A DNA stretch of 33,570 nt from a bacterium ADurb.Bin243 (GTDB taxonomy: Bacteria; Muiribacteriota; UBA9980): positions 1 through 33,570 of the forward strand of contig MWBZ01000037.1 in the NCBI GenBank assembly GCA_002069765.1. Reading direction: 5' to 3'. How positions within the stretch are numbered: position 1 is the first letter of the stretch; each line of letters begins with the position of its first letter. Positions 1,488 to 32,469 of this stretch are shown here, in pieces. Under the pieces are notes generated by a model. The model saw nothing but the letters and a program-made list of their open reading frames with translations, was not told the origin of the DNA and made no database searches. The position numbers and the translations under genes were made by a program.

Positions 1488-3380
1488 TTATTTGACTAAT
1501 TTTACGATCGTTTCTTTTTCGTCGCGGCTCTTCTTGCGCCGCTCCAATATTTCCGGTTTATAGCTTCCGGTGATCTGTATGAGCTTTTTCTTTATCTGAA
1601 AAGGATTGTTGTCGCGCGCGAACCTTTCAATGGCCGATATTTCCTTTTCCAGGAGGGCGGCGTTTATTTCCTGCTTTTTAGCTATGAATATTTTTTTATG
1701 CACGGTGCGCATGGTTCCTTCTTCGGCGGTGAGCAGCTCTTCGTAAAGCTTTTCGCCGGGGCGAAGGCCGGTGTACTTGATTTTGATATCGCTGTCCGGT
1801 TCGAAACCCGACAACCTTATGAGGTCGCGTGCAAGATCGGCTATCTTAACGGGATTTCCCATGTCGAGTATGAAGATTTCTCCGCCTTTGGCCATGACTG
1901 AAGCCTGAACAACGAGTTTAGCCGCTTCGGGTATGGTCATGAAGTACCTCGTTATTTCAGGATGCGTTACCGTAACGGGGCCGCCGGCCTCGATCTGCTT
2001 TTTAAACAGAGGAATGACCGATCCGCGGGAACCCAGGACGTTGCCGAAGCGGACGGCTACGAACTTAGTGCTGGATTCATGAGCCTTAGACTGGATGTAC
2101 ATTTCGGCCACGCGCTTTGTGGCGCCCATTACCGATGTGGGATTAACCGCCTTATCGGTTGAGATCATGACGAAAGTCGATACCTTATATTTGGCGGCCG
2201 CATCTGCGACGTTTTTAGTTCCGAGAATGTTGTTTTTGACGGCTTCGTCGGCATGCGATTCCATCAGCGGCACGTGCTTATACGCGGCGGCGTGGAAAAC
2301 TACGTCTATGCGGCGTTTGGAAAAGATATCGTCGATTTTGGCGCGGTCCTGGATATCGGCTATTATCACTTCGTGAAGGATTCCGGGATAGTCGAGGTTT
2401 AATTCGTTGTTGACCAGATATACGCTGTGCTCGCCGCGCCCTACCAGATAAATTTTTTCAGGTTTGAACTTGATGACTTCGCGCACTATCTGAGAACCGA
2501 TAGAGCCGCCCGCGCCGGTTATGAGAATGGATTTGCCCTGTATGTGGTTTTTGATTTCGTGTATGTTCAGATCAACCTGTTCGCGGCCTAGAAGGTCTTC
2601 TATTTTGACGTCGCGTATCTGTGAAAGGTAAACGTTTTCGTCGATGAGTTCGTAAACGCCCGGAACGGTCTTAACGCTGATTTTAGCTTCGGCGCAAGCG
2701 TCTATTATGGGTTTCATTTCAGAGCCGGTTGCTGAAGGGATGGCGATTATTATTTCGGATACCGAATAATCGCACGCGAGCTCCATAAGAGCGCGCCTGT
2801 CGCCTAAAACCGGTATGTTGTGGATTTTCATGCCCTTTTTGTCGCGGTCGTCGTCGATTATGCCGACGGGTTTGTAGCCGAGTTCTGGGTGTTTTAACAT
2901 TTCACGTATTATCATTTCGCCGGCGTCTCCTGCGCCGTAAATGAATATGGTTTTGGCCGTTTCCGCGGGAGGGCGTTTGCGCATGTAAAGATACTCGTAA
3001 CGCCATCTGAGCACTAATCTCGAAAAACCCACCAGAAAGAAGGTGATGAACATGTCCAGCGCCATGACCGAACGCGGAAAACGGCCCTGGAGAAAGTAAA
3101 TATATGTTATAATAATAAAAGAGCTCGCGATTATCGATTTGAAGATGTTGACCAGATCGTCGACCGACGCATAGCGCCAGATGCGGTTATAAAGCCCCAT
3201 GAAATAAAACGTGGTCACTTTAATGACTGCGAAAGTGAAGAAGAGCGAATATTCGCTGTATTGCGCCGGAATCTGGCCGCGGTCGAGATAAAACGTGATA
3301 AATAAGCTTATAAAAAGCGACGCGATGACAAGTATCGAGTCGGTTATTACAAGAATCACTCTTTTGCTTTTAGTATCCAT
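1488..3380 (-). CDS. Membrane-anchored UDP-GlcNAc 4,6-dehydratase (FlaA1/PglF/WbpM/CapD family)
   Basis: Long form of the polysaccharide-biosynthesis dehydratases, 630 residues. About four hydrophobic segments lie in residues 8-120. A first Rossmann-like domain follows (IFIYGAGDAGEM, 145-156), then the catalytic extended SDR domain with the NAD-binding GAGGSIGSQIV (289-299). The active-site stretch is STDKAVNPTSVMGATKR (407-423), where Thr-Asp-Lys and the downstream Met replace the usual SDR Ser-Tyr-Lys triad, as in PglF and WbpM. That makes UDP-GlcNAc 4,6-dehydration the likely reaction, giving the 4-keto-6-deoxy precursor of bacillosamine- or QuiNAc/FucNAc-type sugars. The start has no ribosome binding site and sits just downstream of a promoter (3390-3418), so the mRNA may be leaderless. 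The C-terminal tail from 600 is basic. The exact product is not determinable here. Confidence 0.9.
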   Translation of the reverse strand: MDTKSKRVILVITDSILVIASLFISLFITFYLDRGQIPAQYSEYSLFFTFAVIKVTTFYFMGLYNRIWRYASVDDLVNIFKSIIASSFIIITYIYFLQGRFPRSVMALDMFITFFLVGFSRLVLRWRYEYLYMRKRPPAETAKTIFIYGAGDAGEMIIREMLKHPELGYKPVGIIDDDRDKKGMKIHNIPVLGDRRALMELACDYSVSEIIIAIPSATGSEMKPIIDACAEAKISVKTVPGVYELIDENVYLSQIRDVKIEDLLGREQVDLNIHEIKNHIQGKSILITGAGGSIGSQIVREVIKFKPEKIYLVGRGEHSVYLVNNELNLDYPGILHEVIIADIQDRAKIDDIFSKRRIDVVFHAAAYKHVPLMESHADEAVKNNILGTKNVADAAAKYKVSTFVMISTDKAVNPTSVMGATKRVAEMYIQSKAHESSTKFVAVRFGNVLGSRGSVIPLFKKQIEAGGPVTVTHPEITRYFMTIPEAAKLVVQASVMAKGGEIFILDMGNPVKIADLARDLIRLSGFEPDSDIKIKYTGLRPGEKLYEELLTAEEGTMRTVHKKIFIAKKQEINAALLEKEISAIERFARDNNPFQIKKKLIQITGSYKPEILERRKKSRDEKETIVKLVK

Positions 3381-3389
3381 AGAAGATTA

Positions 3390-3418
3390 ATTATAACATT
3401 TTTACAAACCAGATTCAA
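3390..3418 (-). promoter_or_regulatory. Sigma-70-type promoter for the dehydratase gene
   Basis: On the minus strand, TTGAAT (3413-3418) is separated by exactly 17 bp from TATAAT (3390-3395). The ATG at 3380 begins only 9 bases beyond the -10 hexamer, so transcription would start at or within a few bases of the start codon. Confidence 0.65.
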
Positions 3419-3448
3419 TAGTTTTTATCGCGCGTGAATCAAAAACGC

Positions 3449-3477
3449 TTGACATGCGTTGCGTCTTATGTTAAAAT
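3449..3477 (+). promoter_or_regulatory. Sigma-70-type promoter for the small His/Cys-rich gene
   Basis: TTGACA (3449-3454), a 17-bp spacer and TAAAAT (3472-3477). Only 6 bases separate the -10 from the GTG start at 3484, the usual distance to a transcription start, so the message may be leaderless. Confidence 0.7.
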
Positions 3478-3483
3478 TTTTAC

Positions 3484-3795
3484 GTGAAGCAAAATTTCAA
3501 ATATTTAATTTCAGCCCTTATTATTGCATACCTGCTTTCTTTCGCGCAGTTTATGGTTTTCGACCACGATTCCTGCGAAGAAGGCCATTCGCATCAAAAA
3601 CAATGCCCGCTTCACAAACACTGCTGCGGCTCTTCACATCTCAACGCGCATAACGCGATAACCTCCGCCGGCGAAAAGTTTTCTCCGCCCGCAGTTTCCT
3701 GCGGAGCCATTTTGCAGCGCGGCTTTATTTGGGTCGAAAACCTTTTCGTCAAAACGGTTTTTCATCCTCCGCGGCCTTCCCGAAACCTTTCATAA
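3484..3795 (+). CDS. Small exported His/Cys-rich protein beside a metal efflux operon
   Basis: A 103-residue protein with a basic start and a hydrophobic segment at about residues 8-24 (signal peptide or membrane anchor). A dense run of potential metal ligands follows: DHDSCEEGHSH, CPLHKHCCGSSH. The C-terminus ends in a Pro-rich HPPRPSRNLS. Small proteins with this layout (hydrophobic N-terminus, His/Cys cluster, PPR-like tail) often stand at the head of heavy-metal efflux operons, such as CopL/DUF2946-like proteins; this link is by architecture only. The start is inferred: GTG at 3484 is the only start codon before the hydrophobic segment, it has no ribosome binding site, and a promoter lies 6 bp upstream. 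A likely role is periplasmic metal binding or buffering for the pump encoded downstream. No enzymatic motif is visible. Confidence 0.62.
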   Translation: MKQNFKYLISALIIAYLLSFAQFMVFDHDSCEEGHSHQKQCPLHKHCCGSSHLNAHNAITSAGEKFSPPAVSCGAILQRGFIWVENLFVKTVFHPPRPSRNLS

Positions 3796-3948: not shown

Positions 3949-5301
3949 ATGCGTAATCTTCAGCTGTTATTAGTGTTGGTTTTGTTGAGCGCTCTTTTGC
4001 CGGGCGCGCTATTTAGCGCGCAGGAAAAAGTTTCCGCGATCGAAAGTTTTTCCGGTTTGATCAGGGCGAATAACGCGGGCGTCAAAAGGTTCGAAAGCGA
4101 GCTTAAAAGCGCTGAACGCGAACTTAAGGCGGCTTCGAAACCGTCGGCCGTGATGCTTGAAATCGAAGGCGAGAGGACCTTCGAAAGCGGCGAAGAAAAA
4201 AAATACGAAACCAAAAATATAGAATTTTCTAAAACTTTCGGCCCGAACGATCCCGGTTCAGCGTTAAAAAGAAAAAACTCGATCGAGCTTAAAATTAAGC
4301 GCGAACAGGCTCTCAAAGCGATCGACGACATCGTTTACGGCTCTTACGCCGGTTTATTAAACGCTCTCAAGCTGGCATACCAGAAAAAGCTGGCGGCGGA
4401 AAACCTTAAAATAGCCGAAAACATAATTGAAGCCGTCACTAAAAAATACGAGGTGGCGCTCGGCTCTAAAATGGAAATAGAACAGGCCGTTCTGGATTAC
4501 GAAGTCCAGTTTTTAAAGGCGCTCGAAATAAAAGGCGCGTTCGAAAATCAAAAAGCGGCGCTGGAAATAGAAAACGGTATCGTTGAACCGGGCGTGCTGA
4601 CTTCTTTTCTCGAATTGCGGCGGACGGTTTCCCTCACAGGCGAGATTGAAATGCTTTTAAGCTCGGCGTCTATCGCCGTAGAAGACGTTAAAAAACTATA
4701 TTCGGACGCCCGCGCGAAAAGACGCGATCTGAAATCGGCGTTATACGAAGTCGAGCTGGTGGACGCTATGGCCGGAATGGAAAGGCGCAGCGGCTCTCCG
4801 GAATATAAACTGGGGTTTTTAAGAAGCGTAAATGATTAAAAGGAAGCCGAACGCGGCGTTAAACTCGGGATTTCAATACCGGTTTATGATTTCGGCAGGC
4901 GCAGGGAAACTATTGACGCGCTCAAGTTGAAAATGTCGGGATACCGCACCGAACTAGGCGTGAAAAGTTTTTTTGCGGAGCATATCGAACGAAGCATATT
5001 GCTGGATATTACGGAAAAATATAATTTGTGCATGCTTAACCGTGAAAAACTCGAACGGCTCGGCGGAGTCGGGCTGAAAAAAGCTTCGGGGCTTCTCGGC
5101 ATGGCCACTATCGGATATACCGAAGGCGCCACAACGCTGTTCGAATATCAGAACGCCAAAAAAAGCTATTTCGAGTTTTTCGAGCAGCTAATCGCGGCCG
5201 CTTTCGATTTTAACATATCTCTTCTGGAATTAAGAAAGGCGTGCGGCGTTCCGCCTGATGAAAATGCAGATATAATGGGACGTTTCATAAAATTAAATTA
5301 A
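3949..5301 (+). pseudogene. CzcC-like TolC-family outer-membrane channel gene split by an in-frame TAA
   Basis: In CzcCBA-type pumps the CzcC protein is the outer-membrane exit duct. The frame starts at ATG 3949 after a strong GGAGG site. It encodes a signal peptide (about residues 1-24, ending LFSAQ) and the first coiled-coil OEP half (NNAGVKRFESELKSAERELK, about 43-62). It stops at TAA 4837-4839, codon 297. The same frame is then open to 5301, and its first residues (KEAERGVKLGISIPVYDFG) are the classic start of the second OEP repeat. The whole would be about 450 residues, normal for CzcC. CAA to TAA is the simplest origin, but a base-calling error is equally possible. Translation might restart at ATG 4936, giving a separate C-terminal piece without a signal peptide. 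The adaptor and pump genes follow in the same direction and look intact. Confidence 0.82.
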
Positions 5302-5319: not shown

Positions 5320-6996
5320 ATGAATATAAAAAAAAATCGATATATTTCAAACGTTAAAACCGTTTTTTTATTTATCGCGGTTATTTTGATCGGCGGCTTT
5401 TGTTACGGACGGCTTAATTTATCCGGCGCTTCGGCGGCCGGCGGCGAAGCGGCGCACGATCACCGGAACTGTTCGCATGCCGAAGGCGAAGCGGCTAAAC
5501 ATGAAGAAGCGAAAGCCCCTTCTGAAGCTTACGAAACTTTCAGCCTCAAAGACCGTTCGGCCATAAAGACGCCTGAGTCTCATGACGGACATAACCATGG
5601 CGCGGAATCCGCCGGCCGCGAAAAAGAAGCGGCGGCCCACGGCCCCGGCGACGGGCACGATCACGGCAGCGAAGCCGCTCACGGCGCCTTGGCCCCTGAA
5701 ATTAAAATAGACGGCCTGGTGACGGAAAAGGCCGTAGCTGAAACCGTATATGAAACGGTAAGCGCTAACGCGACCGTCAGATTTCATCCCGATCATTACG
5801 CTAAAATAGTGCCTTTCGTTCCGGGGCGGGTAAAACAGATAAAGGCCAGGCTCGGCGACCGCGTTAAAAAAGGCCAGGAACTTATGGTTGTCGAATCGGT
5901 CGAAATATTCAACGCTAAGGTCGAATACTTAAAAAACCTCAACCGCTATGAAGTCGCGCTCGCTAAATATGAAAATATAGTGCAGATGGGCGAACTTGGA
6001 TCGTTTACGCAGAAAAACGTAGAAGAAGCCACGGGTTCTCTGGCCGACGCGAAATCGCAATATGAAAAAGCCCTTGTAGCGCGTGAAACGGCGTCTAAAA
6101 AATATGAACGCGTTAAAAAATTAGTGGATTCCGGAGTTTCGTCCCGCTCGGAGCAGGAGCAGGCCGAAAACGAACTCAGAAGCGCGTCTATCGAAGTCGA
6201 ATCGTCTAAATCCAAGCTAGAAAACGCTCAAAAATCCATGTCGCGCGTAGAAAAACTCAGCGACGCTAAAATTTCGCTTAAAAGAGAAACGGCGGATATT
6301 CAGACGGAATTCTATGAAGCCAGGCAGAATTACGACATATCGCATAAATATTTAGCCGTCGTAGGCGTGGAATGCGAGCCGGGCGGCGACTGCAAAATAC
6401 ATGAACTGGGCACGTTTTCTATTTATTCCCCGATAGACGGAATCGTTATCGAAAATAACGCCGTAATCGGCGGCAGCATCGATACTCAGACGGCCGTGAT
6501 GTGCGTCGGCGATTACGACGTAACGGCCATAGATATAGACATCTATGAGAAAGACCTTTCCAGGGTCCATAACGGCCAGAGAGTCGAAATTGAAAATATT
6601 TACGGCAAGACCATAGCCGGCCGGATAACTTATATGAGCAATATACTCGAGCAGAACACCCGCACGCTTAAGGCTAGGGCTGAAATCGACGAAAACCCTT
6701 CACTTCTTAAAATCGGCGAATTCGTTAACTGCGTGATACTGGCCGCCGAGCGCAAAAATGCCGTTACGGTGCCTCAGGCCGCGATCATAGAAGACGGCGG
6801 AAGGTTCCTTGTTTATATTAAATGCGGCAAGTCTTACGATAAAGTTTACGTGAAGCAGGGCCACAAATTCAGGGACCGCGTCGAGATAATCGAAGGCGTA
6901 AAGCCCGGCGACGAGGTAGTTACCGTCGGAAACTACCAGCTGTTTAATATGTCGATGTCTAACAAGCTTGAATTAAGCTGTGATTCGTGCAAATAA
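5320..6996 (+). CDS. RND efflux periplasmic adaptor, CzcB-like, with His-rich N-terminus
   Basis: Membrane-fusion protein linking the inner-membrane pump to the outer-membrane channel; 558 residues. A signal anchor (about 13-30) is followed by a His-rich stretch from 46 to 121 with eleven histidines (AHDHRNCSH, SHDGHNHG, GDGHDHG), probably a metal-binding antenna. Then come the first lipoyl/barrel-sandwich half (IVPFVPGRVKQIKARLGDRV), a long alpha-helical hairpin (about 200-340), the second lipoyl half (SIYSPIDGIVIENNAVIGG), a beta-barrel and a membrane-proximal domain. The protein ends in CDSCK, a CxxC pair. It starts at ATG 5320, 18 bp after the channel frame ends; ATGs at 5312 and 5315 are in another frame. 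It is part of the channel-adaptor-pump operon. The pattern argues for a divalent heavy metal or copper substrate, which sequence alone does not settle. Confidence 0.9.
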   Translation: MNIKKNRYISNVKTVFLFIAVILIGGFCYGRLNLSGASAAGGEAAHDHRNCSHAEGEAAKHEEAKAPSEAYETFSLKDRSAIKTPESHDGHNHGAESAGREKEAAAHGPGDGHDHGSEAAHGALAPEIKIDGLVTEKAVAETVYETVSANATVRFHPDHYAKIVPFVPGRVKQIKARLGDRVKKGQELMVVESVEIFNAKVEYLKNLNRYEVALAKYENIVQMGELGSFTQKNVEEATGSLADAKSQYEKALVARETASKKYERVKKLVDSGVSSRSEQEQAENELRSASIEVESSKSKLENAQKSMSRVEKLSDAKISLKRETADIQTEFYEARQNYDISHKYLAVVGVECEPGGDCKIHELGTFSIYSPIDGIVIENNAVIGGSIDTQTAVMCVGDYDVTAIDIDIYEKDLSRVHNGQRVEIENIYGKTIAGRITYMSNILEQNTRTLKARAEIDENPSLLKIGEFVNCVILAAERKNAVTVPQAAIIEDGGRFLVYIKCGKSYDKVYVKQGHKFRDRVEIIEGVKPGDEVVTVGNYQLFNMSMSNKLELSCDSCK

Positions 6997-7009
6997 AAGG
7001 CGGTGAAAA

Positions 7010-10000
7010 GTGCTTTCAAAAATAATACAATTCTCAGTGAAATCCAGAACGTTGATTTTCATAATCACCGCTCTTATATTTATAATGGGCGTACGCTCTG
7101 CGTTTAGAGTCAACCGCGATATTCTGCCGGATCTCGCGATACCGATAATAACCATAGTTATAGAAAATCATTCGCTGGGGCCGGAAGATATGGAAAATCT
7201 TATAGCCCGCCCACTGGAATCGAGCATACGCTCGGCCCCCGGCGTCAACAAGGTGGTCAGTGTCTGCGGCCTCGGTCTTCTGGCCGTCACCGTGGAATTT
7301 CAATGGAACGAAGATCCGTGGCGCATCCGCCAGTCCGTATCCGAGAAAATAGCCGCAGTTCAGGCGTCTTTTCCGGCAGGCACCGAAGTTTCTTCCATCG
7401 GTACGGCGTCTTCGAGAATGAGCGAAATTTTCGAATTTTATCTCAGCGGCGATACCGATGAGATGTCTCTTCGAGAAATCGCTAATTTTATTGTAAAGCC
7501 GAAATTACAGACAGCGCAGGGAATTGCCAGAGTGAGAATTTTCGGCGGCGACGCCAAGCAGTTTCAGATATTGGTCGATCCAAATAAACTAAAAAAATTC
7601 GGCCTTTCGCTCGACGAAGTGGAAAAGTCGGTTGAAGAAAATAACCATAATTTCACGGGCGGCATATTTCCATCGCATGGAATCGAATATGTAATACGCG
7701 GCATCGGAGCCATCAAAAACGTCGGCGAACTCGAAAACATAATACTTGCTTCGCCGAACGGGGTTCCAGTGCATCTTTCGGCGGTAGCCAGAGTGGTGGA
7801 AGGCCCGGCGCTGAAAAGAGGGCTGATGGAAGTTAACGGGAAACGGGTGGTATCGCTTACCGTTTCAAAACAGCAAGGCCTCGATACCGTCAAAGCTGTC
7901 GCTTCTTTGAAAAATTCCATAGCCGAGATAAAACCGTTTTTGCCGTCCGGGATTAAGCTCGAAACTTTTTTCGACCAGTCCGAACTTATAAACGATACTT
8001 CTAAAAATCTTTCCGAGGCGATGCTGATCGGCGGCCTGGCGGTAGTATTGATTCTATACCTTTTTTTGAACAATATCGTAGCGACATTCGTTTCGGCGGT
8101 CACCATACCGCTTTCGGTCGCCGTTACTTTTTACTTGATGTATCTTGCGGGAGTATCGGCCAATATCATGTCGCTCGGCGGCATAGTCGTGGGAATCGGG
8201 ACTCTCGTGGACGCCGCTATAGTCATCTGCGAAAATATATTCAGGCACCTTGAATCGAAAAAGCTCGCTCTCTACGATTCGGTTATAATAGGAGCGTCCG
8301 AAGTGTTTAAGCCGGTGCTTGCCAGCACGCTTATTATATGCGTGGTATTTATGCCGCTTATGACTCTCGGAGGATTCGAAGGCAGGATTTTTTCGCCTTT
8401 CGCGTTAACTATGATCGTTTCGATATTCGTCGGGCTCCTGCTGTCGTTTCTTTTAGTCCCGCCGCTTATATTTTTAATACTTTCAAAATATAAAAATTAC
8501 GAAGGCGGCCGAAATCATTTTATAGCGTCTTTTTTTGTTAAAAAATTCGAGCCTTTGCAGCGCGGCGTTCTGGCGAACGGCCGCACTTTTTCCGCCGCGG
8601 TATTCATTCTTTTCGTTTTAGCCATAATCGCTTTGATAAATCTTCCGGTCGAACTGCTTCCGCCGATAGATGAAAATGCGGTTATGCTGAGCGTGGTTAC
8701 GCCGCCCGGCTCGAGCCTCGCCGAAACGGCCCGCCTGACCAAACTCGCCTGCGAGAAGATCAAAGGAGTCGACGATGTCGAAAGCGTTCTGCAGCGAAGC
8801 GGCCGCGCCGAAGGCTCCGATTGCATCGAGGGAGTGAACGTTTCCGAGCCGTATATAAAACTCGTTCCGCGCTCGAAACGCAAACACTCCATGGAAAAAC
8901 TTTTTGATTTAATGAATGAAAGGGTTAAAGACATTCCGGGCATTCTGGTTATCTTTACACAGCCTCTGGCCAATCGCATAGAAGAAACCCTTTCCGGAAC
9001 TTCGGCGAAATTTTCGATCAAGCTTTTCGGCCACGATTTGAACGCGCTTTCCGAAAAAGGGAATGAGCTTTTAAACCTGATTTCGACCGTGCCGGGGCTT
9101 ACCAATCTTCAAATCGAACAGACGCAGGGCGTCCCCACGGTGGTTATAAAGCCCGACAGGCGAAAGGCGGCAAAGTTCGGACTTAATATCGAAGACATAG
9201 CCAGGACTGTAGAAATGGCCATAGAAGGCAAAACCGTATCCCGCGTACTGACCGGCGGCCGTGAATACGATATAGTTTTAAGGCTGGACGAGCGTTTCAG
9301 GAAGACGATGTCCGACATAGGCGAATTGTATATAGACACGCCGGCCTTCGGAAAAGTGAAGCTCGGCGAGGTAAGCGAGATCAATTCCACGAAGGGGCCC
9401 AGTTCGGTGAAGCGCGAGGATATGCAGCGCAGGATACAGATCAACGGAAGCATTTCGGGACGAGACCTGTTTTCCATAACTGACGATATCAAAAAGAAGC
9501 TCGCGGGGATTAAACTCCCGGAAGGCTATTTTATTTCGTTCGGCGGCAACTATGAAAAACAGGTCAGGATGTTAAGTGAAATAACTTACGCGTTTCTGCT
9601 CGCGCTGATAGGCGTTTTTGCCATATTGTTCGTGTCTTTTGGAAGCGTCAGCCAGTCGCTTTTGATAATAGTCACCATTCCGCTGGCTTTGATGGGAGGA
9701 GTTTTCGCTCTTTTCGTCACGGGAACCTCGTTGAACGTATCGTCCCTGGTGGGATTTATAGCCCATTTCGGGCTTTCCGTGCAGAAGGGCGTTATTCTTG
9801 TGGAATATATCAACGATTTGAGAAAGCGCGGCCACAACCTTATGTCGAGCGTTATAAATGCGGGAAAAATAAGGCTGCGGCCTGTTTTGATGACCAGCTT
9901 CACTACCGCGTTCGGAGTGGTTCCCATAGCGCTCGGTTTCGGCGCCGGAGCCGAAATGCAGCAGCCGCTGGCGATAGTTCTTATAGGCGGGCTTATAACT

Positions 10001-10153
10001 TCGACCATATTTACTCTGCTGTGGCTTCCTTTATTTTACGGGACCGCCGAAAAATTCACTATGGAAACAGCTCATGAATCTACAGTCAGGCTTATAAGGC
10101 GCCTTTACGGCAAAAAAGACCTTTATCCAGGCGAAGTGGAAGACGAAAAATAA
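7010..10153 (+). CDS. Heavy-metal RND efflux pump, CzcA/CusA-like
   Basis: Proton-driven inner-membrane pump of the RND superfamily; 1,047 residues, full length. It has the usual duplicated plan: one transmembrane helix (about 13-30), a large periplasmic loop, a helix bundle (about 337-490), a second periplasmic loop and a final bundle (about 868-1010). TM4 contains GIGTLVDAAIVICENI, with Asp401 and Glu408 at the proton-relay positions; this resembles CusA more than CzcA. However, the CusA methionine triad appears absent: the first two Met positions read Glu (in EETLSG) and Leu (in KFGLNI). A divalent ion is therefore more likely than Cu(I)/Ag(I), as inference. GTG 7010 is chosen because AAAGGCGGTG lies just upstream; it is 13 bp from the adaptor stop. 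The gene ends 10 bp from a convergent gene. Confidence 0.92.
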   Translation: MLSKIIQFSVKSRTLIFIITALIFIMGVRSAFRVNRDILPDLAIPIITIVIENHSLGPEDMENLIARPLESSIRSAPGVNKVVSVCGLGLLAVTVEFQWNEDPWRIRQSVSEKIAAVQASFPAGTEVSSIGTASSRMSEIFEFYLSGDTDEMSLREIANFIVKPKLQTAQGIARVRIFGGDAKQFQILVDPNKLKKFGLSLDEVEKSVEENNHNFTGGIFPSHGIEYVIRGIGAIKNVGELENIILASPNGVPVHLSAVARVVEGPALKRGLMEVNGKRVVSLTVSKQQGLDTVKAVASLKNSIAEIKPFLPSGIKLETFFDQSELINDTSKNLSEAMLIGGLAVVLILYLFLNNIVATFVSAVTIPLSVAVTFYLMYLAGVSANIMSLGGIVVGIGTLVDAAIVICENIFRHLESKKLALYDSVIIGASEVFKPVLASTLIICVVFMPLMTLGGFEGRIFSPFALTMIVSIFVGLLLSFLLVPPLIFLILSKYKNYEGGRNHFIASFFVKKFEPLQRGVLANGRTFSAAVFILFVLAIIALINLPVELLPPIDENAVMLSVVTPPGSSLAETARLTKLACEKIKGVDDVESVLQRSGRAEGSDCIEGVNVSEPYIKLVPRSKRKHSMEKLFDLMNERVKDIPGILVIFTQPLANRIEETLSGTSAKFSIKLFGHDLNALSEKGNELLNLISTVPGLTNLQIEQTQGVPTVVIKPDRRKAAKFGLNIEDIARTVEMAIEGKTVSRVLTGGREYDIVLRLDERFRKTMSDIGELYIDTPAFGKVKLGEVSEINSTKGPSSVKREDMQRRIQINGSISGRDLFSITDDIKKKLAGIKLPEGYFISFGGNYEKQVRMLSEITYAFLLALIGVFAILFVSFGSVSQSLLIIVTIPLALMGGVFALFVTGTSLNVSSLVGFIAHFGLSVQKGVILVEYINDLRKRGHNLMSSVINAGKIRLRPVLMTSFTTAFGVVPIALGFGAGAEMQQPLAIVLIGGLITSTIFTLLWLPLFYGTAEKFTMETAHESTVRLIRRLYGKKDLYPGEVEDEK

Positions 10154-21277: not shown

Positions 21278-24200
21278 ATGATAAGAAATACATTGAACTC
21301 AAACTTGAATAAGGCGTTCATTATTTTCAGTTTGATATTTGCGGCCGCTGTATTTAACGGCTGCGGCGGCAGCGATGGCGGCGGTTCGCCTCTCGGCTCT
21401 CTTGGTTATAAAGACTCGATGATTGCGGCCGATGCCGGTTCGATAAAAAACATAACGGAACTGGCCGCTCTTCAAAATATTATGGTTACCGAAGATAATC
21501 AGGACGAATATTTTCTTCAACTGGAAAAAATATTAAACGGCGATTTTATTAACGCGAACTTGAAATCAAATGATCCTTCGGCCGTTTATTTTTCCGGCAT
21601 AGTACTTAACAGGGTCACAGACGAGGTGGCTGCCGGAACCGCGTATGATCTGAAATCAAAAATTATTGCTACGGCGCATTTTTCAAATAACGTATCCGAA
21701 AATATAACTCCTTTCTGGACAATTTATTCGGGCGGCGGTTCTTTTGACGGGGCGGTATTTTCGGCGCCTTCTAATAATGATAGAACCGTTTTTATTGCCA
21801 GCTTCGTCAAAAACGGAACGACTAAATTCGCGGTTTTCAGATTGAGCACGGTAACCGGCGTTCAAGCTTCCGGCGTTCGTTCCGCGGCGTCCGCCCGTGT
21901 AGCCTCTTTGCCGTACGATTGCGGTTCGAAAGATTCGCATAAAAAGAACGATAAGGATTTTCGAGATTGTGACTCCAAAAATTCATGCAAAAAGCATGAT
22001 AATGATCCGCATGATTGCGGCTCTAAAAATCCATGCAAGAAGCACGATTCTTTTCAGCTTTTATTGAGTAAAACCTCGGACGAAATTTTCATAAACTCTT
22101 CAACCGCGGTTTATGATCTTTCGCAAATTACAGTTACGGCTTTTAATCCCGTCGGAAAAGAAAAAGACAGAACCGAATATCCTCATACTACATGGGCGCT
22201 TTCATCAGGCCTCGGCGTTTTAAACGGTAAAGTTTATACGGCTGCGGTTCCGGAAACCGCCGTTTTCACGGTTAGTTACGCTCATGCCGGAACGGTTTTG
22301 ACTGCGGAATTCACTCTGCGGATCGTGGGGCTTTCTTCGATTAGACTGGATAAAACGTCGGACGAAATAATTCTTTCGACTATAAAACCCAACACATACG
22401 ATCTTTCTAATATTGCAGTGAGCGCGGATTATTCAAATTCAACGACTAAAGACGTGACCGGCGATCCTAATACCGTGTGGACGATTGTTTCCGGCGCCGG
22501 AACGCTTGACGGAAAATTATATACGGCTACGGCGGCCGAAAAGGCCTTTTTAAGAGCGAGCTACACAGAAGGCGGCATAATTAAAACCGCCGATTTTACT
22601 TTAGATATTTTAAAAATATCGTCTATTGCCCTCGTTAAAAATTTCGACGCGATTATGCTTTCGCCGGCCGGCCCCAATTCTTATGACTTTTCAGGCATTG
22701 GAGTAACGATATTTTACTCGAACGGGGTTTCCAGAGAGGTAACTGACGACGAAAACACTATGTGGTCAATGGTTTCCGGCCTGGGTACTCTAAACGGAAA
22801 GGTTTACGCCGCAAAGGCTATTGAAACCGCATCCTTCAAAGCGCTTTATAAAGGCGCGGAAGATTCCGTCGCGGCGGGTTTTGATTTGAAGGTCGACGGC
22901 CTGTCGTCGATCGTTTTAAATAAAAGCCTCGATGAAATAAAACTTTCTCTTACCGGCCCCGGCGCATATGACCTTTCTAAAATAGCCGTTACGGCGCATT
23001 ATACTAATTCCTCCTCCCGCGAAGTTACGGAAGAGCCGGCCGCTGTATGGGCTCTGACTTCCGGCTCCGGCGGGCTTAACGGTAAAATATACACGCCTCC
23101 CGCGGCATCGGAAAAAGCGGTTTTAACGGTTAGCTATACCGAATGCGGCGTCACCGCGAGCGCGCAATTCGAACTTACGGCCGTGCTCGATTCCATGCCG
23201 CCGGCGGTTTCGCTTAGCGACGACCACCCGGACGCCTCCGTTAAAAGCGGCGACGTTATTGTGATTACTGCCCAGTTCACCGATAACGATAAGATTAACG
23301 AAGTGCCGCCGCCCGCGATTTCCATTGGCTCTTCGGTCGTCGATGCCCCCATGACTAAAGTTTCCGATTTCAGCTGGGTTTATACATGGACCGTTGCCGC
23401 GGGAATTTACGGCGCTCAGAAAGTTTCTATAAACGCCTCGGACGTTACGGGTAATCGCAACACGCCCGCTACCGGTAAGACCGAATATACGATCGAGCAG
23501 CTAATTCAAAAATATGAATATGTAAAGCAATTTTCGGGTTTGATATATCCGTGCGGCGTCGCGGTGGATTCTACCGGCAACGTGTACGCGACCAGTCAGG
23601 ACCACTCTATAAGAAGATTTGACGCCTCCGGAAATCCTATAAAAAAATGGGGATCATATGGAAGCGGAAACGGTAAATTCTATAACCCGGCCGGGATTGC
23701 GATCGATCCTGCCGGATACGTTTATGTCGCGGACGAATTCAATAACCGCATTCAAAAATTCGATTCCAACGGTAACTTTATATTAAAATGGGGTTCTTAC
23801 GGTTCGCAGAGCGCCCAATTTTATCATCAGTTCGATGTCGCTGTAGATTTCGCCGGATATGTTTATGTCGCGGATACGTTGAACCATCGCGTTCAAAAAT
23901 TCGATTCTAACGGTAATTTCATATTTATGTTCGGAAGTTTTGGAACCGGTGACGGCCAGTTTAATAGAGTCACGGCTGTAAAGGTAGACCTTTCAGGAAA
24001 TATTTACGTCACCGACGCTAACAATAACCGCATTCAAAAATTCGATTCTAACGGCAATTTCATACTTAAATGGGGAACCGCGGGAACCGGCGACGGCCAG
24101 TTCAGCTACCCCAGCAATATAGCGCTGGATTCCGCCGGCAACGTTTACGTGTCGGACCATAATAATAACCGCGTTCAAAAATTCGATTCAGCCGGAAATT

Positions 24201-27602: not shown

Positions 27603-28292
27603 TTAATTAATCAGTTCCGCCTCTACTGTATCGGCCTTAATTACTTCGTTCATGATCTTTTTGGAGTCCAGCGAATTGAGGTATGTTTTTAAATTAGACC
27701 AGATTTCATGAAACCCGAAATTTTCCATTTCTTTTATGGCGTCGCTCATTTTCCAGCCTTCTACTACTACGCGGTAAACCGCGCACATCGTTCCGGTGCG
27801 GTCCGCCCCGTGCTGGCAATGGACGAATACGGGCTGGTATTTGGGATCGGTGACCAGTTTTAAAAAATTTACGACGTAATCGTCTTTAAAGTTCCAGGTG
27901 TATATTCCCATTCGTTTATAGTATAATCCGAGGCCTTTGAGCATGGAACGATCGGAGTGAAAAGCTCTGAGACTAAGCACGGTCTTAACGCCCATCTTTT
28001 TTAATTCTTTGAATCCTTCGGCCGTAGGCTGCTCGCCGCGGTAGAGAGTTTCGGATATTTTAGCGAAGTTTTTAAGGCCTTCTATATCGTTTTTGGCGAC
28101 GGCATATTTGGGAGTAGAAAGTTCGGTTTCAGAAGTTTTAGCCGCGGCAGCCGAAAGGAGTTCGGGCTTTAAAACGAACGCTTTTTCTTTTGCCGATAAA
28201 GGTAGCAGACTTCCAAAAATACAGAATAAAAATACGGCTGAGACGATTATGACTTTTGGAGTAATTCGGCCGGCAGTGGTTAAATTTTTCAT
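27603..28292 (-). CDS. Exported dual-specificity/tyrosine phosphatase-like protein
   Basis: 229 residues with a signal peptide (about 13-34, ending PLSAK). The cysteine phosphatase loop is HCQHGADRTG, with Cys159 and Arg165 in the CX5R signature. VKTVLSLRAF (102-111) and the LYRGEQPT entry motif match bacterial DSP-like phosphatases (DUF/Siw14-type), some of which act on inositol phosphates. General-acid Asp candidates lie at FKDD (135-138). AAGGAG precedes the start. The substrate is unknown; export suggests an envelope or environmental phosphate source rather than cytoplasmic signalling. It is adjacent to, but probably transcribed separately from, the thioredoxin-fold gene. Confidence 0.83.
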   Translation of the reverse strand: MKNLTTAGRITPKVIIVSAVFLFCIFGSLLPLSAKEKAFVLKPELLSAAAAKTSETELSTPKYAVAKNDIEGLKNFAKISETLYRGEQPTAEGFKELKKMGVKTVLSLRAFHSDRSMLKGLGLYYKRMGIYTWNFKDDYVVNFLKLVTDPKYQPVFVHCQHGADRTGTMCAVYRVVVEGWKMSDAIKEMENFGFHEIWSNLKTYLNSLDSKKIMNEVIKADTVEAELIN

Positions 28293-28474: not shown

Positions 28475-28779
28475 TTAATTTTATGAATTTTTTGCCGATA
28501 ATTATAGCGATGAATTTTATCTGAAAGTTAATTTCATTCGGTTTTTCGGTTTTAAAGCCGGACTAAAGCTTAACTATGAAACCTAAATCTATTAATATAA
28601 GTCATAAAGAAAAAGGGGAGATTTATGAGTACTTTTTTCACTAAAAAAACTGGAGTTTTGATGGGGTGCGCCGCTTTATCGCTAGCAATTTCTTTAGGGC
28701 CTCTCGCTTCGGGCGCCGAAGCGTTCAATAAAGAAGCCATCGAGCAGATGAAGGAAAAATTGAATTATAAGAAGGCTGA
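28475..28779. repeat. 305-bp perfect tandem duplication, copy 1
   Basis: Reads base for base the same as 28780-29084. It contains the leader, ribosome site and first 51 codons of the TolC-family gene. The unit boundary shows no obvious microhomology. Confidence 0.95.
28570..28598 (+). promoter_or_regulatory. Weak candidate promoter, duplicated with the 305-bp block
   Basis: TTAACT (28570-28575), 17-bp spacer, TAATAT (28593-28598), each 4 of 6 to consensus. The same pair recurs at 28875-28903. If real, the TolC-family gene has two tandem promoters. Confidence 0.33.
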
Positions 28780-28783
28780 TTAA
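28625..28783 (+). pseudogene. Truncated duplicate start of the TolC-family gene (52 codons)
   Basis: The ATG at 28625 follows GGGGAG and encodes the same signal peptide and first residues as the gene at 28930 (NKEAIEQMKEKLNYKKA), then Asp and TAA created by the duplication junction. The offset of 305 bp is not a multiple of three, so it cannot read into the second copy. If expressed it would give an exported peptide of about 20 residues after signal cleavage. It is most likely a non-functional relic of a tandem duplication or an assembly product. Confidence 0.75.
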
Positions 28784-29084
28784 TTTTATGAATTTTTTGC
28801 CGATAATTATAGCGATGAATTTTATCTGAAAGTTAATTTCATTCGGTTTTTCGGTTTTAAAGCCGGACTAAAGCTTAACTATGAAACCTAAATCTATTAA
28901 TATAAGTCATAAAGAAAAAGGGGAGATTTATGAGTACTTTTTTCACTAAAAAAACTGGAGTTTTGATGGGGTGCGCCGCTTTATCGCTAGCAATTTCTTT
29001 AGGGCCTCTCGCTTCGGGCGCCGAAGCGTTCAATAAAGAAGCCATCGAGCAGATGAAGGAAAAATTGAATTATAAGAAGGCTGA
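28780..29084. repeat. 305-bp perfect tandem duplication, copy 2
   Basis: Second unit, directly abutting the first. It runs from the TTAATTTTATG word to codon 51 plus two bases of the intact TolC-family gene. Confidence 0.95.
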
Positions 29085-30555
29085 AAAAACAGAGAAAAAT
29101 TCAAAAATCGAAACTGTAAAACCGCCTGCAGAAAACAAAAGCGAAGTTAAAATCGAAACGGTTAAAAAGAGCGCAAAAGCGGATTTAAAATCCGAAGTAA
29201 AAGCGGAGGCGAAACCTGAAGTAAAAGCAGGCGTGAAAACCGAAGTTCTTGCCCCGTCTCAAACGGCGCCTGCGGTAAAGGTGGAAGCGCAGTCTCAGTC
29301 CGGCGCTCCTATGGCGGCTGAAGAGCTCGATCTGGTAGGAAGCATTAAATTCGCTCTGGATAATAACAGAAATTTGAAAGCGGCTGAAAAAGGCGTTCAG
29401 CTCGCCGATATAAAAATAAGGGAAGCAAAGGCTAAATACGATCCGCAGCTATCTTATCAGGGTATAGTAACGCGTATGGATCAGGCCACCGTAATGCAGC
29501 TCGGCCCCGTGAGCGTTAAAATGGCGGATAAAATTATTCAGGACCATAAAATCAACTATTCGCAGGCTTTATACACTTCGAACCGCGTGGAATACGGAAA
29601 ACTTATGGCTGAAAAGTATAAAGAAGCCGCGGTTTTTGCCGTAGATTCCGCCCGCGTGAACCTGGTTTACAATGTAAAGAAAGCGTTTTATGACCTTCTG
29701 CTGGCAAAGGAATTCGTAAAAGTTTCCAAAGAGTCCGTCGAATTGATCGCGGCCCATGTGCAGACCGTTAAAAACCGTTTTAACGCAGGAACCGCTTCGA
29801 AATTCGACCTTTTGCGCGTCGAAGTACAGGAAGCTAATACAAAACCTAATATGATCAAAGCCGTTCACGGCCTTACCATCGCCAAAAACGCTTTTAATAA
29901 TATTCTCGCCCGGCCGCTCTTTTCCGATATCGAAATAGCCGGCGAACTGAAAAAATCACTGCTTCCTTTAGTAGACCTTGAAAGCGCTCTCAATACCGCT
30001 ATCGGCACAAGAGACGATATAAAGGCCGCGAAAGCCGAACTGGAAGCGGCCGGCGCTTCAATGAAGCTGGCGAAATCAGGCGACAAGCCCACTGTGGCGT
30101 TAAGCGGAACTTACGATCAGGCCAAAGGCAAATCGTATCCCGTTGAAAAATTCAACGAAACGTGGAATATGAACGTAGTTGCCCAGGTGCCCATATACGA
30201 CGCAAAAGAATCGAAACACGCGCTCGAAACGGCCGCCACAACTTATGAACAGAAAAAAATAAATTTCGATCAGCTTATCGAAAACGTAAAGCTCGAAGTT
30301 AAAATAGCTCACCAGGAATTGATTCAGGCCGACGAACTTATAACGGCTTCGGAAAAGAACGTCGAACAGGCTAAAGAAGCGCTTTCGATCGCCCAGGTTT
30401 CATACGATAACGGCCTTAATACAAACCTTGAAATAATGGACGCTCAGCTCGCGCTCACTCAGGCTAAAACCAATTACTTCCAGTCGCTTCACGATTACGG
30501 CGTGGCGTTCGCTAAACTCGAAAAATCAATGGGAATTGCGAGAATCGCCGAATAA
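28930..30555 (+). CDS. TolC-family outer-membrane efflux channel with Lys/Glu-rich linker
   Basis: 541 residues, longer than most TolC-family proteins (about 420-490). A signal peptide (about 1-34) is followed by a low-complexity linker to about residue 135, rich in Lys, Glu, Ala and Val with recurring EVK words, and then two OEP repeats. The first begins LVGSIKFALDNNRNLKAAEK; the second includes VAQVPIYDAKES. The long helical segments (VSYDNGLNTNLEIMDAQLAL) and the C-terminal FAKLEKSMG are typical. The trimer would be an outer-membrane exit duct for a tripartite exporter. No adaptor or pump gene is adjacent. It could serve the metal pump whose own channel gene is interrupted, but that is speculation. 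GGGGAG precedes the start, and a terminator follows. Confidence 0.88.
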   Translation: MSTFFTKKTGVLMGCAALSLAISLGPLASGAEAFNKEAIEQMKEKLNYKKAEKTEKNSKIETVKPPAENKSEVKIETVKKSAKADLKSEVKAEAKPEVKAGVKTEVLAPSQTAPAVKVEAQSQSGAPMAAEELDLVGSIKFALDNNRNLKAAEKGVQLADIKIREAKAKYDPQLSYQGIVTRMDQATVMQLGPVSVKMADKIIQDHKINYSQALYTSNRVEYGKLMAEKYKEAAVFAVDSARVNLVYNVKKAFYDLLLAKEFVKVSKESVELIAAHVQTVKNRFNAGTASKFDLLRVEVQEANTKPNMIKAVHGLTIAKNAFNNILARPLFSDIEIAGELKKSLLPLVDLESALNTAIGTRDDIKAAKAELEAAGASMKLAKSGDKPTVALSGTYDQAKGKSYPVEKFNETWNMNVVAQVPIYDAKESKHALETAATTYEQKKINFDQLIENVKLEVKIAHQELIQADELITASEKNVEQAKEALSIAQVSYDNGLNTNLEIMDAQLALTQAKTNYFQSLHDYGVAFAKLEKSMGIARIAE

Positions 30556-30672: not shown

Positions 30673-32469
30673 TTAATTTTTTTTGCGTTTATAAAGCGAT
30701 GTGAAGTTAAGATATTTTCTTTTTATTTTATGCGGAGCTTCGTTCGTCCTCATCGATCGCAGGTAGTCGAAAAAGGCATTCCTTATTTCAGTTTTTTCAT
30801 GCTGCAGGGCCTTTGCGGCCGGCGAAGAAAAAACGCGGCAGCCTTCCTTTTTTAACATCGCTTCGCACGCTTTCATAAAGACATAGTATCCTCCGCGGGA
30901 GCCGCGGCCGGCTTCGAACGAACCGGCTATCGCCGCGAGCGCAGGAACTGAATTTTCAAGCAAGAACTTAAGATAAGCCATACGCATTCCTATATCGCCG
31001 CCTGCCGGGGCTTCGACGAAATAATCTAAGTAATGCGTGCCGCCGATATATTCGGGCAGATTATATTTTGCAATGCCGTTTTTATAACTTTCGATATAGT
31101 CTTTTTTCGTTCCGGAGGGAACTATGAGCGATACCGAAGAAAAAGCCGGGTAAACCGCGTCGGCGAGCCTTAACTCGTTGTTGACGGGATTGCCCCTGTG
31201 GGCGCGGCCGCAAAATTTGAAGTTGAAAATGAGCTCCGCGGTGTCGTTTAAAAGGCCGTAACCGGTTATTTTGCCGTTCATTTCATCTATGTATTCAAGC
31301 CTTTCAGAAAGCGGCATATAAACCGGTTCTTCGCGGCATGAATTAAAAATTTTTAAGTTCCCGTCAAGATTTTTTTGGAATTCGTTTATTTCGGAAAATC
31401 TTTTTATACCTGTCCCGTCGCTTTCCCAGCTGTTTTTGGGATAAAACTGGGCGTTTTCCAGGAATAAGACTTCCCTGTCAAAAATGAATCTGGGAGATGG
31501 AATTGCGATATTTTTAAGCGTGTATGGAGAGTCGTAGTAGTTGATGCCCGGGCCGTATGAAAGATAAATATATGTGTTCTGGGCCGAACCTATGTCGGTT
31601 TGATCCAGCTTATTCATGTCGAGCGAAATATTTTCTTCGACGAATGAACGTTTGGCCCTTATGTCCTGTGAGATGATCGGGTAATCATTTTTTAAAAACG
31701 AAACGGCCAGCTTTATGTCGAGCGAACGTTTTTGGCAGACTTCGGCGACGTTTCTGTTGTAAGTGATTTTATGCGTGGGATAAAATAGAAAGCGGCCTTT
31801 TAAGGCTTCTTCCGGGGATGAAATCAGCCGGTTTACATAGCCGAAATAATCAGGCCTGTCGAAGTAATAGCGATTGTATTTAACTGTATTTTGAACTACG
31901 GCTATTTTTGCGGGGAATAAGCGTTCGACCATTTTGCCGAAAACCAGAGGCATCTTTTCTGATCCGGCTTTTGTAATTATGCGTAAATATCCCCTGTCGC
32001 TTATAAAAGCGTCGTTATCTATACGGTTTATTTTATAAGGGACATAAAGAACTTCGCAAAGCGCGTCCGCGGCGTCAAAACTAAAAATGAGCGAACTGGC
32101 TTTTTCGTAAAACACGCTCCCGTTTTTTCTATAAGTTTTAAACTTTCGTTTTTCAGACTCGAATATCGATGGATTTAGATGTTTTTCAATGCCGCGGCCG
32201 AGTTTTGAAAAAAATTCATAGCTTCCGCGTTCGTAAATAGCGTAAATAATCAAGCCGTTTTTTTGGCCGCCGCAGCTTAAAAAAATTGCCCTTGGTTCGC
32301 CCGGCCGGGATTTAAGAGATTCGAAAAAAACGCCGTCGATTTTTTGGACGAAATCTTCGTCCAGGTCAAGGGCGAAGGCGCTTATGCCGCACGATACCGC
32401 AAGCGCTATAATAACGCCGGCCAGAAAAAAACGCGATATTAGCTTAAACTGATTTGATTTAAATTTCAT
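30673..32469 (-). CDS. Large exported protein of unknown function
   Basis: 598 residues, AAGGAA ribosome site upstream. A signal peptide covers about residues 1-34 (basic start, hydrophobic core, ending SAFA). The rest is a mixed hydrophilic protein rich in Tyr and Phe, with no further membrane helix. It contains ten or so cysteines spread singly, no lipobox and no repeat. I could not match any catalytic motif. A Gly/Arg patch, GSFEAGRGSRGGYY (about 528-541), and a basic C-terminal tail (KIKRKYLNF, YKRKKN) stand out. The gene runs alone between two terminators, separated from the upstream PLP-enzyme gene by a hairpin. It is probably periplasmic or secreted and lineage-specific, with unknown role. 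Confidence 0.7.
   Translation of the reverse strand: MKFKSNQFKLISRFFLAGVIIALAVSCGISAFALDLDEDFVQKIDGVFFESLKSRPGEPRAIFLSCGGQKNGLIIYAIYERGSYEFFSKLGRGIEKHLNPSIFESEKRKFKTYRKNGSVFYEKASSLIFSFDAADALCEVLYVPYKINRIDNDAFISDRGYLRIITKAGSEKMPLVFGKMVERLFPAKIAVVQNTVKYNRYYFDRPDYFGYVNRLISSPEEALKGRFLFYPTHKITYNRNVAEVCQKRSLDIKLAVSFLKNDYPIISQDIRAKRSFVEENISLDMNKLDQTDIGSAQNTYIYLSYGPGINYYDSPYTLKNIAIPSPRFIFDREVLFLENAQFYPKNSWESDGTGIKRFSEINEFQKNLDGNLKIFNSCREEPVYMPLSERLEYIDEMNGKITGYGLLNDTAELIFNFKFCGRAHRGNPVNNELRLADAVYPAFSSVSLIVPSGTKKDYIESYKNGIAKYNLPEYIGGTHYLDYFVEAPAGGDIGMRMAYLKFLLENSVPALAAIAGSFEAGRGSRGGYYVFMKACEAMLKKEGCRVFSSPAAKALQHEKTEIRNAFFDYLRSMRTNEAPHKIKRKYLNFTSLYKRKKN

Follow-up and report, generated by a model that had tools for sequence, protein, structure and literature searches.

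Small tandem duplications that arise spontaneously in bacteria are generally known to consist of identical copies placed head to tail, with one novel junction and an intact gene retained, and promoter duplications upstream of efflux genes are known to give a transporter-type gene an additional promoter. The locus analysed here, in the draft genome of the bacterium ADurb.Bin243 (Muiribacteriota), resembles both: a 305-bp unit spanning a putative promoter, a leader, a ribosome binding site and the start of a TolC-family gene is written twice in direct succession. It differs from the former in lacking junction microhomology and in being known from an assembly alone, and from the latter in being known as a sequence only. 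A further likeness is to the repeats that short-read assemblers return in exactly two identical copies when the unit exceeds k (PMC6052550), whereas for ADurb.Bin243 the type of assembly is identified only by a 75-bp contig overlap. The literature on metagenome assembly duplications and microhomology duplications yielded nothing directly usable. The window, i.e. the whole stretch of DNA analysed (33,570 nucleotides), is the entire contig C37 of this 317-contig draft, which is probably metagenome-assembled; the congeners compared with it were assembled from metagenomes.

The 305-bp repeat, its breakpoints and its relatives

The two units (28475-28779 and 28780-29084, + strand) abut head to tail and are 100% identical on direct comparison, as the first-pass annotation of this DNA had claimed; TRF reports 2.0 copies with 100% matches and a score of 1220. 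Extension past the unit is 0 bp on the left as well as on the right and no shift of the repeat is possible, even by a single base, since the base preceding copy 1 differs from that preceding copy 2 and the bases following the copies likewise differ. The breakpoints are therefore unique and microhomology is absent. The same annotation had seen no microhomology of three or more bases at the junction, and in fact not even 1 bp is shared. Slippage between short repeats was rejected as the origin because of this junction homology of 0 bp. The 25-mer across the novel junction (28772-28796, + strand) occurs once in the whole genome. No further occurrence of the unit was found in the rest of the genome, other contigs included, and the junction was not found in viral contigs.

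A tandem-repeat scan covering 2.61 Mb of the genome, with contigs C250-C259 (read as N) left out, found, at unit lengths of 50 bp and above, no exact tandem duplication besides the 305-bp repeat; the other exact tandem repeats have units of 12, 19/38 and 24 bp. As the sole repeat of its kind in 2.61 Mb, it is not attributable to chance.

Comparison with congeners was used to read the ancestral state. One copy each is present in G003, which is 83% identical across the unit, and in G002. The left flank of copy 1 and the right flank of copy 2 both align with G003, and the window with one copy deleted aligns with it through both breakpoints. The site is unreadable in G001, whose contig stops within the TolC-family gene. 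Single-copy versions, which the first-pass annotation had proposed looking for, are thus present in both readable congeners, so that the duplication is derived in the ADurb.Bin243 lineage; as judged from these two sites, it is private to ADurb.Bin243 among the genomes compared. Contigs break within the same TolC-family gene in two of the three congeners (C572 and C37 in G003, C113 in G001).

The channel gene and the sigma-28-like element

The gene running on from copy 2 (28930-30555, + strand) is intact and encodes a TolC-family outer membrane protein of 541 amino acids. Its product matches PF02321 (OEP) in two stretches (6e-47, 160 bits), which places it among the TolC/OEP outer membrane factors, and its sequence relatives among solved structures are CusC and OprM. 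The type I secretion TolC model TIGR01844 scores 136 bits on it, below the cut-off of 225. The repeat and the OEP domain together bear out the earlier description, in which a tandem duplication spans the beginning of a TolC/OEP gene. From the ATG at 28930, 155 nucleotides (51 codons and 2 nucleotides) lie inside the unit, in agreement with the 51 codons given before. Copy 2 retains the putative promoter, the leader, the ribosome binding site and the uninterrupted 541-residue reading frame, and the duplication therefore costs no coding sequence. Copy 1 is more than a leader. Its reading frame has the same start as the full gene, at 28625, reads MSTFFTKKTGVLMGCAALSLAISLGPLASGAEAFNKEAIEQMKEKLNYKKAD and then meets a TAA stop made by the junction, giving a 52-codon minigene (28625-28783, + strand) for a signal peptide and about 19 further residues.

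The sigma-28 consensus is TAAAGTTT-N11-GCCGATAA. The unit opens with TTAATTTT-ATGAATTTTTT-GCCGATAA, that is TTAATTTT-N11-GCCGATAA, and each copy thus begins with a putative sigma-28-like promoter: P1 (28475-28501, + strand), assigned from the motif match and from counterparts in two congeners, and the identical P2 (28780-28806, + strand), assigned from the motif match. Measured against the consensus, which is an enterobacterial one, the -35 box agrees at 6 of 8 positions, the spacing is 11 and the -10 box agrees at 8 of 8. The counterpart in G003 lies at the same place and reads TAAATTTT-N11-GCCGATAA; that in G002, also at the same place and in otherwise poorly alignable DNA, reads TTAATATT-N11-GTCGATAA. 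The genome contains flagellin genes and two FliA/WhiG-type sigma genes above the curated cut-off of TIGR02479. The element thus shares with FliA promoters the layout of its boxes and the octamer GCCGATAA, in a genome that has FliA genes. It differs from them in its incomplete -35 match, and also in its -10 box from several flagellin genes of the genus, which carry a related motif with TAAAGTTT, TAAAGTTC or TAAATGTT followed by N11-(A/T)TCGATAT, with a TAAA-type -35, 48-61 bp upstream of the start.

Upstream of genes, the sigma-28-like motif was found 13 times on the same strand and 18 times on the opposite one, without strand bias (~2 Mb). The scan therefore showed no enrichment of the motif there, and the argument for function is one from conservation and resemblance only. 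That the opening element is a sigma-28-dependent promoter is a reasoned guess from its sequence. The conserved element with which the unit opens supports the earlier suggestion that the duplication adds a second promoter and leader. The -35 box begins exactly at the left breakpoint; this coincidence was noticed post hoc and deserves little weight. The octamer GCCGATAA is common, with 349 copies in ~2 Mb, and the one at 28192, inside the neighbouring phosphatase gene and without a matching -35, was judged a chance occurrence. A scan of the + strand of the unit gave no sigma-70 promoter or terminator. That the leader contains a structured RNA, such as a riboswitch, was also considered and rejected, as there was no Rfam match (only a tRNA elsewhere) and the fold z-score was 0.16.

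The assembly and competing explanations

Overlaps of exactly 75 bp link contig ends of the draft (9 matches for 78 ends, each reciprocal pair counting twice), and no Ns were found in the 2.61 Mb of contigs, which points to a graph assembly with k~75 and not to N-gapped scaffolds. Wrong joins in such a graph need shared words of length k, while a join with zero homology needs words, and hence reads, that span it; this favours a real junction. Since the unit is longer than k, the graph would contain it as a single loop, and how many times it is written is left to the assembler. When arrays of 300-bp units were simulated in published work, SPAdes wrote two copies for true copy numbers of two to five (PMC6052550, Table 5). 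Both copies may thus have been written from one graph edge, and the count of two and the perfect identity carry little information on age or copy number. The first-pass annotation had read the zero divergence as a sign of a very recent event, of maintenance by recombination or of an artefact; recency and maintenance no longer follow from it, while the artefact stands as a rival. More widely, an exact two-copy repeat whose unit exceeds k in a graph-assembled draft is evidence of neither copy number nor recency. At the left end of the window, positions 1-354 overlap the end of contig C212 of this genome (G000, 3293-3646) over 354 bp, with 12 SNPs between 75-bp exact stretches. Judged from this pattern, the overlap is an unresolved strain bubble, and the sample holds two strains or more.

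The explanation we favour, with moderate confidence, is a small lineage-specific tandem duplication covering promoter, leader and signal peptide, which would be real in at least part of the population and have a modest effect on expression. The kind of event is ordinary, and both the reality of the duplication and the presence of its junction in reads of the sampled population appear probable. The duplication is possibly polymorphic, and the cell may hold two or more copies, their exact identity being assembly-dependent. Two points speak against a real duplication: microhomology-free breakpoints are less usual for slippage-type duplications, and strain variants in the sample (C212/C37) are a setting in which assemblers err locally. 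In the main rival, two sequence ends were abutted during scaffolding, gap filling or contig merging with their 305-bp overlap kept, and the cell has one copy. The fragmentation of the draft into 317 contigs and the strain heterogeneity at a contig end are in its favour, and an unmerged overlap would also look perfectly identical with zero junction homology. However, that same zero homology speaks against a join of the commonest, k-mer type, as does the lack of Ns across the 2.61 Mb; moreover, contig overlaps here are 75 bp, and a k~75 graph would have merged an exact overlap of 305 bp. No second such duplication is present in 2.61 Mb, so a systematic assembly error was rejected. Taken together, we regard an artefact as a serious possibility, though a rather unlikely one.

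The junction may also be real in a minority of cells, or belong to an array of more than two copies that the assembler unrolled to exactly two. Being one form of a real junction, this possibility overlaps in probability with the others. The SPAdes simulations agree with it, and in a sample of mixed strains a minority variant could have entered the contig; the bin has no contig with the single-copy allele, although graph assemblers normally would not output one. We hold it to be unlikely. It is very improbable that the duplication is a selected regulatory element, retained for the tuning of channel expression by two promoters or by the signal-peptide minigene: the unit does start exactly at the -35 box without disrupting the gene, but the boundary match is post hoc, the duplication is absent from both relatives with a readable site and there is no sign of maintenance. 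To the still more elaborate idea of an expression switch, in which a reversible, homology-free duplication of promoter and signal peptide would act on a channel gene under motility-sigma control in an uncultured phylum and the secreted 52-residue minigene made by the junction would take part in that control, we attach hardly any credence.

Under the favoured explanation, a homology-free event would have joined a site shortly after codon 51 of the TolC-family gene to the first base of the sigma-28-like promoter. The gene would stay intact behind P2, and P1, added upstream, would also drive the minigene. If the duplication is fixed, transcription from P1 would run through the minigene and a 146-nucleotide spacer into P2 and the gene, while P2 alone would give the ancestral transcript, but without the ancestral DNA upstream of its -35 box. 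With an active motility sigma factor, transcription of the channel gene would then be modestly changed. One copy would be lost frequently by homologous recombination, making the change reversible, and RecA excision of one copy is plausible. If real, the locus is one more example of a small tandem duplication that adds a promoter without breaking a gene.

Neighbouring genes in the window

Upstream of the repeat lies a divergent gene (27603-28292, - strand) for what is probably a secreted DSP/PTP-like phosphatase. Directly after the signal peptide region of the channel gene, Lys/Glu-rich low-complexity 24-bp repeats (29100-29330, + strand) vary among the relatives. Beyond the channel gene, a 598-residue protein (30673-32469, - strand) matches nothing in Pfam or NCBIfam and, judged by eye, seems to carry a signal peptide. 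A 48-bp tandem repeat (21941-22048, + strand) lies inside the gene of an apparently secreted repeat protein of 1028 residues, whose repeats look NHL-like by eye only. A second outer membrane factor, CusC-like and belonging to a CusA/CzcA-type RND operon (5320-10153), is encoded at 3949-5301 (+ strand), in a reading frame that a stop interrupts after codon 296. Its homologue in G002 is open across 457 amino acids, and the ADurb.Bin243 gene is likely a pseudogene or affected by a base error.
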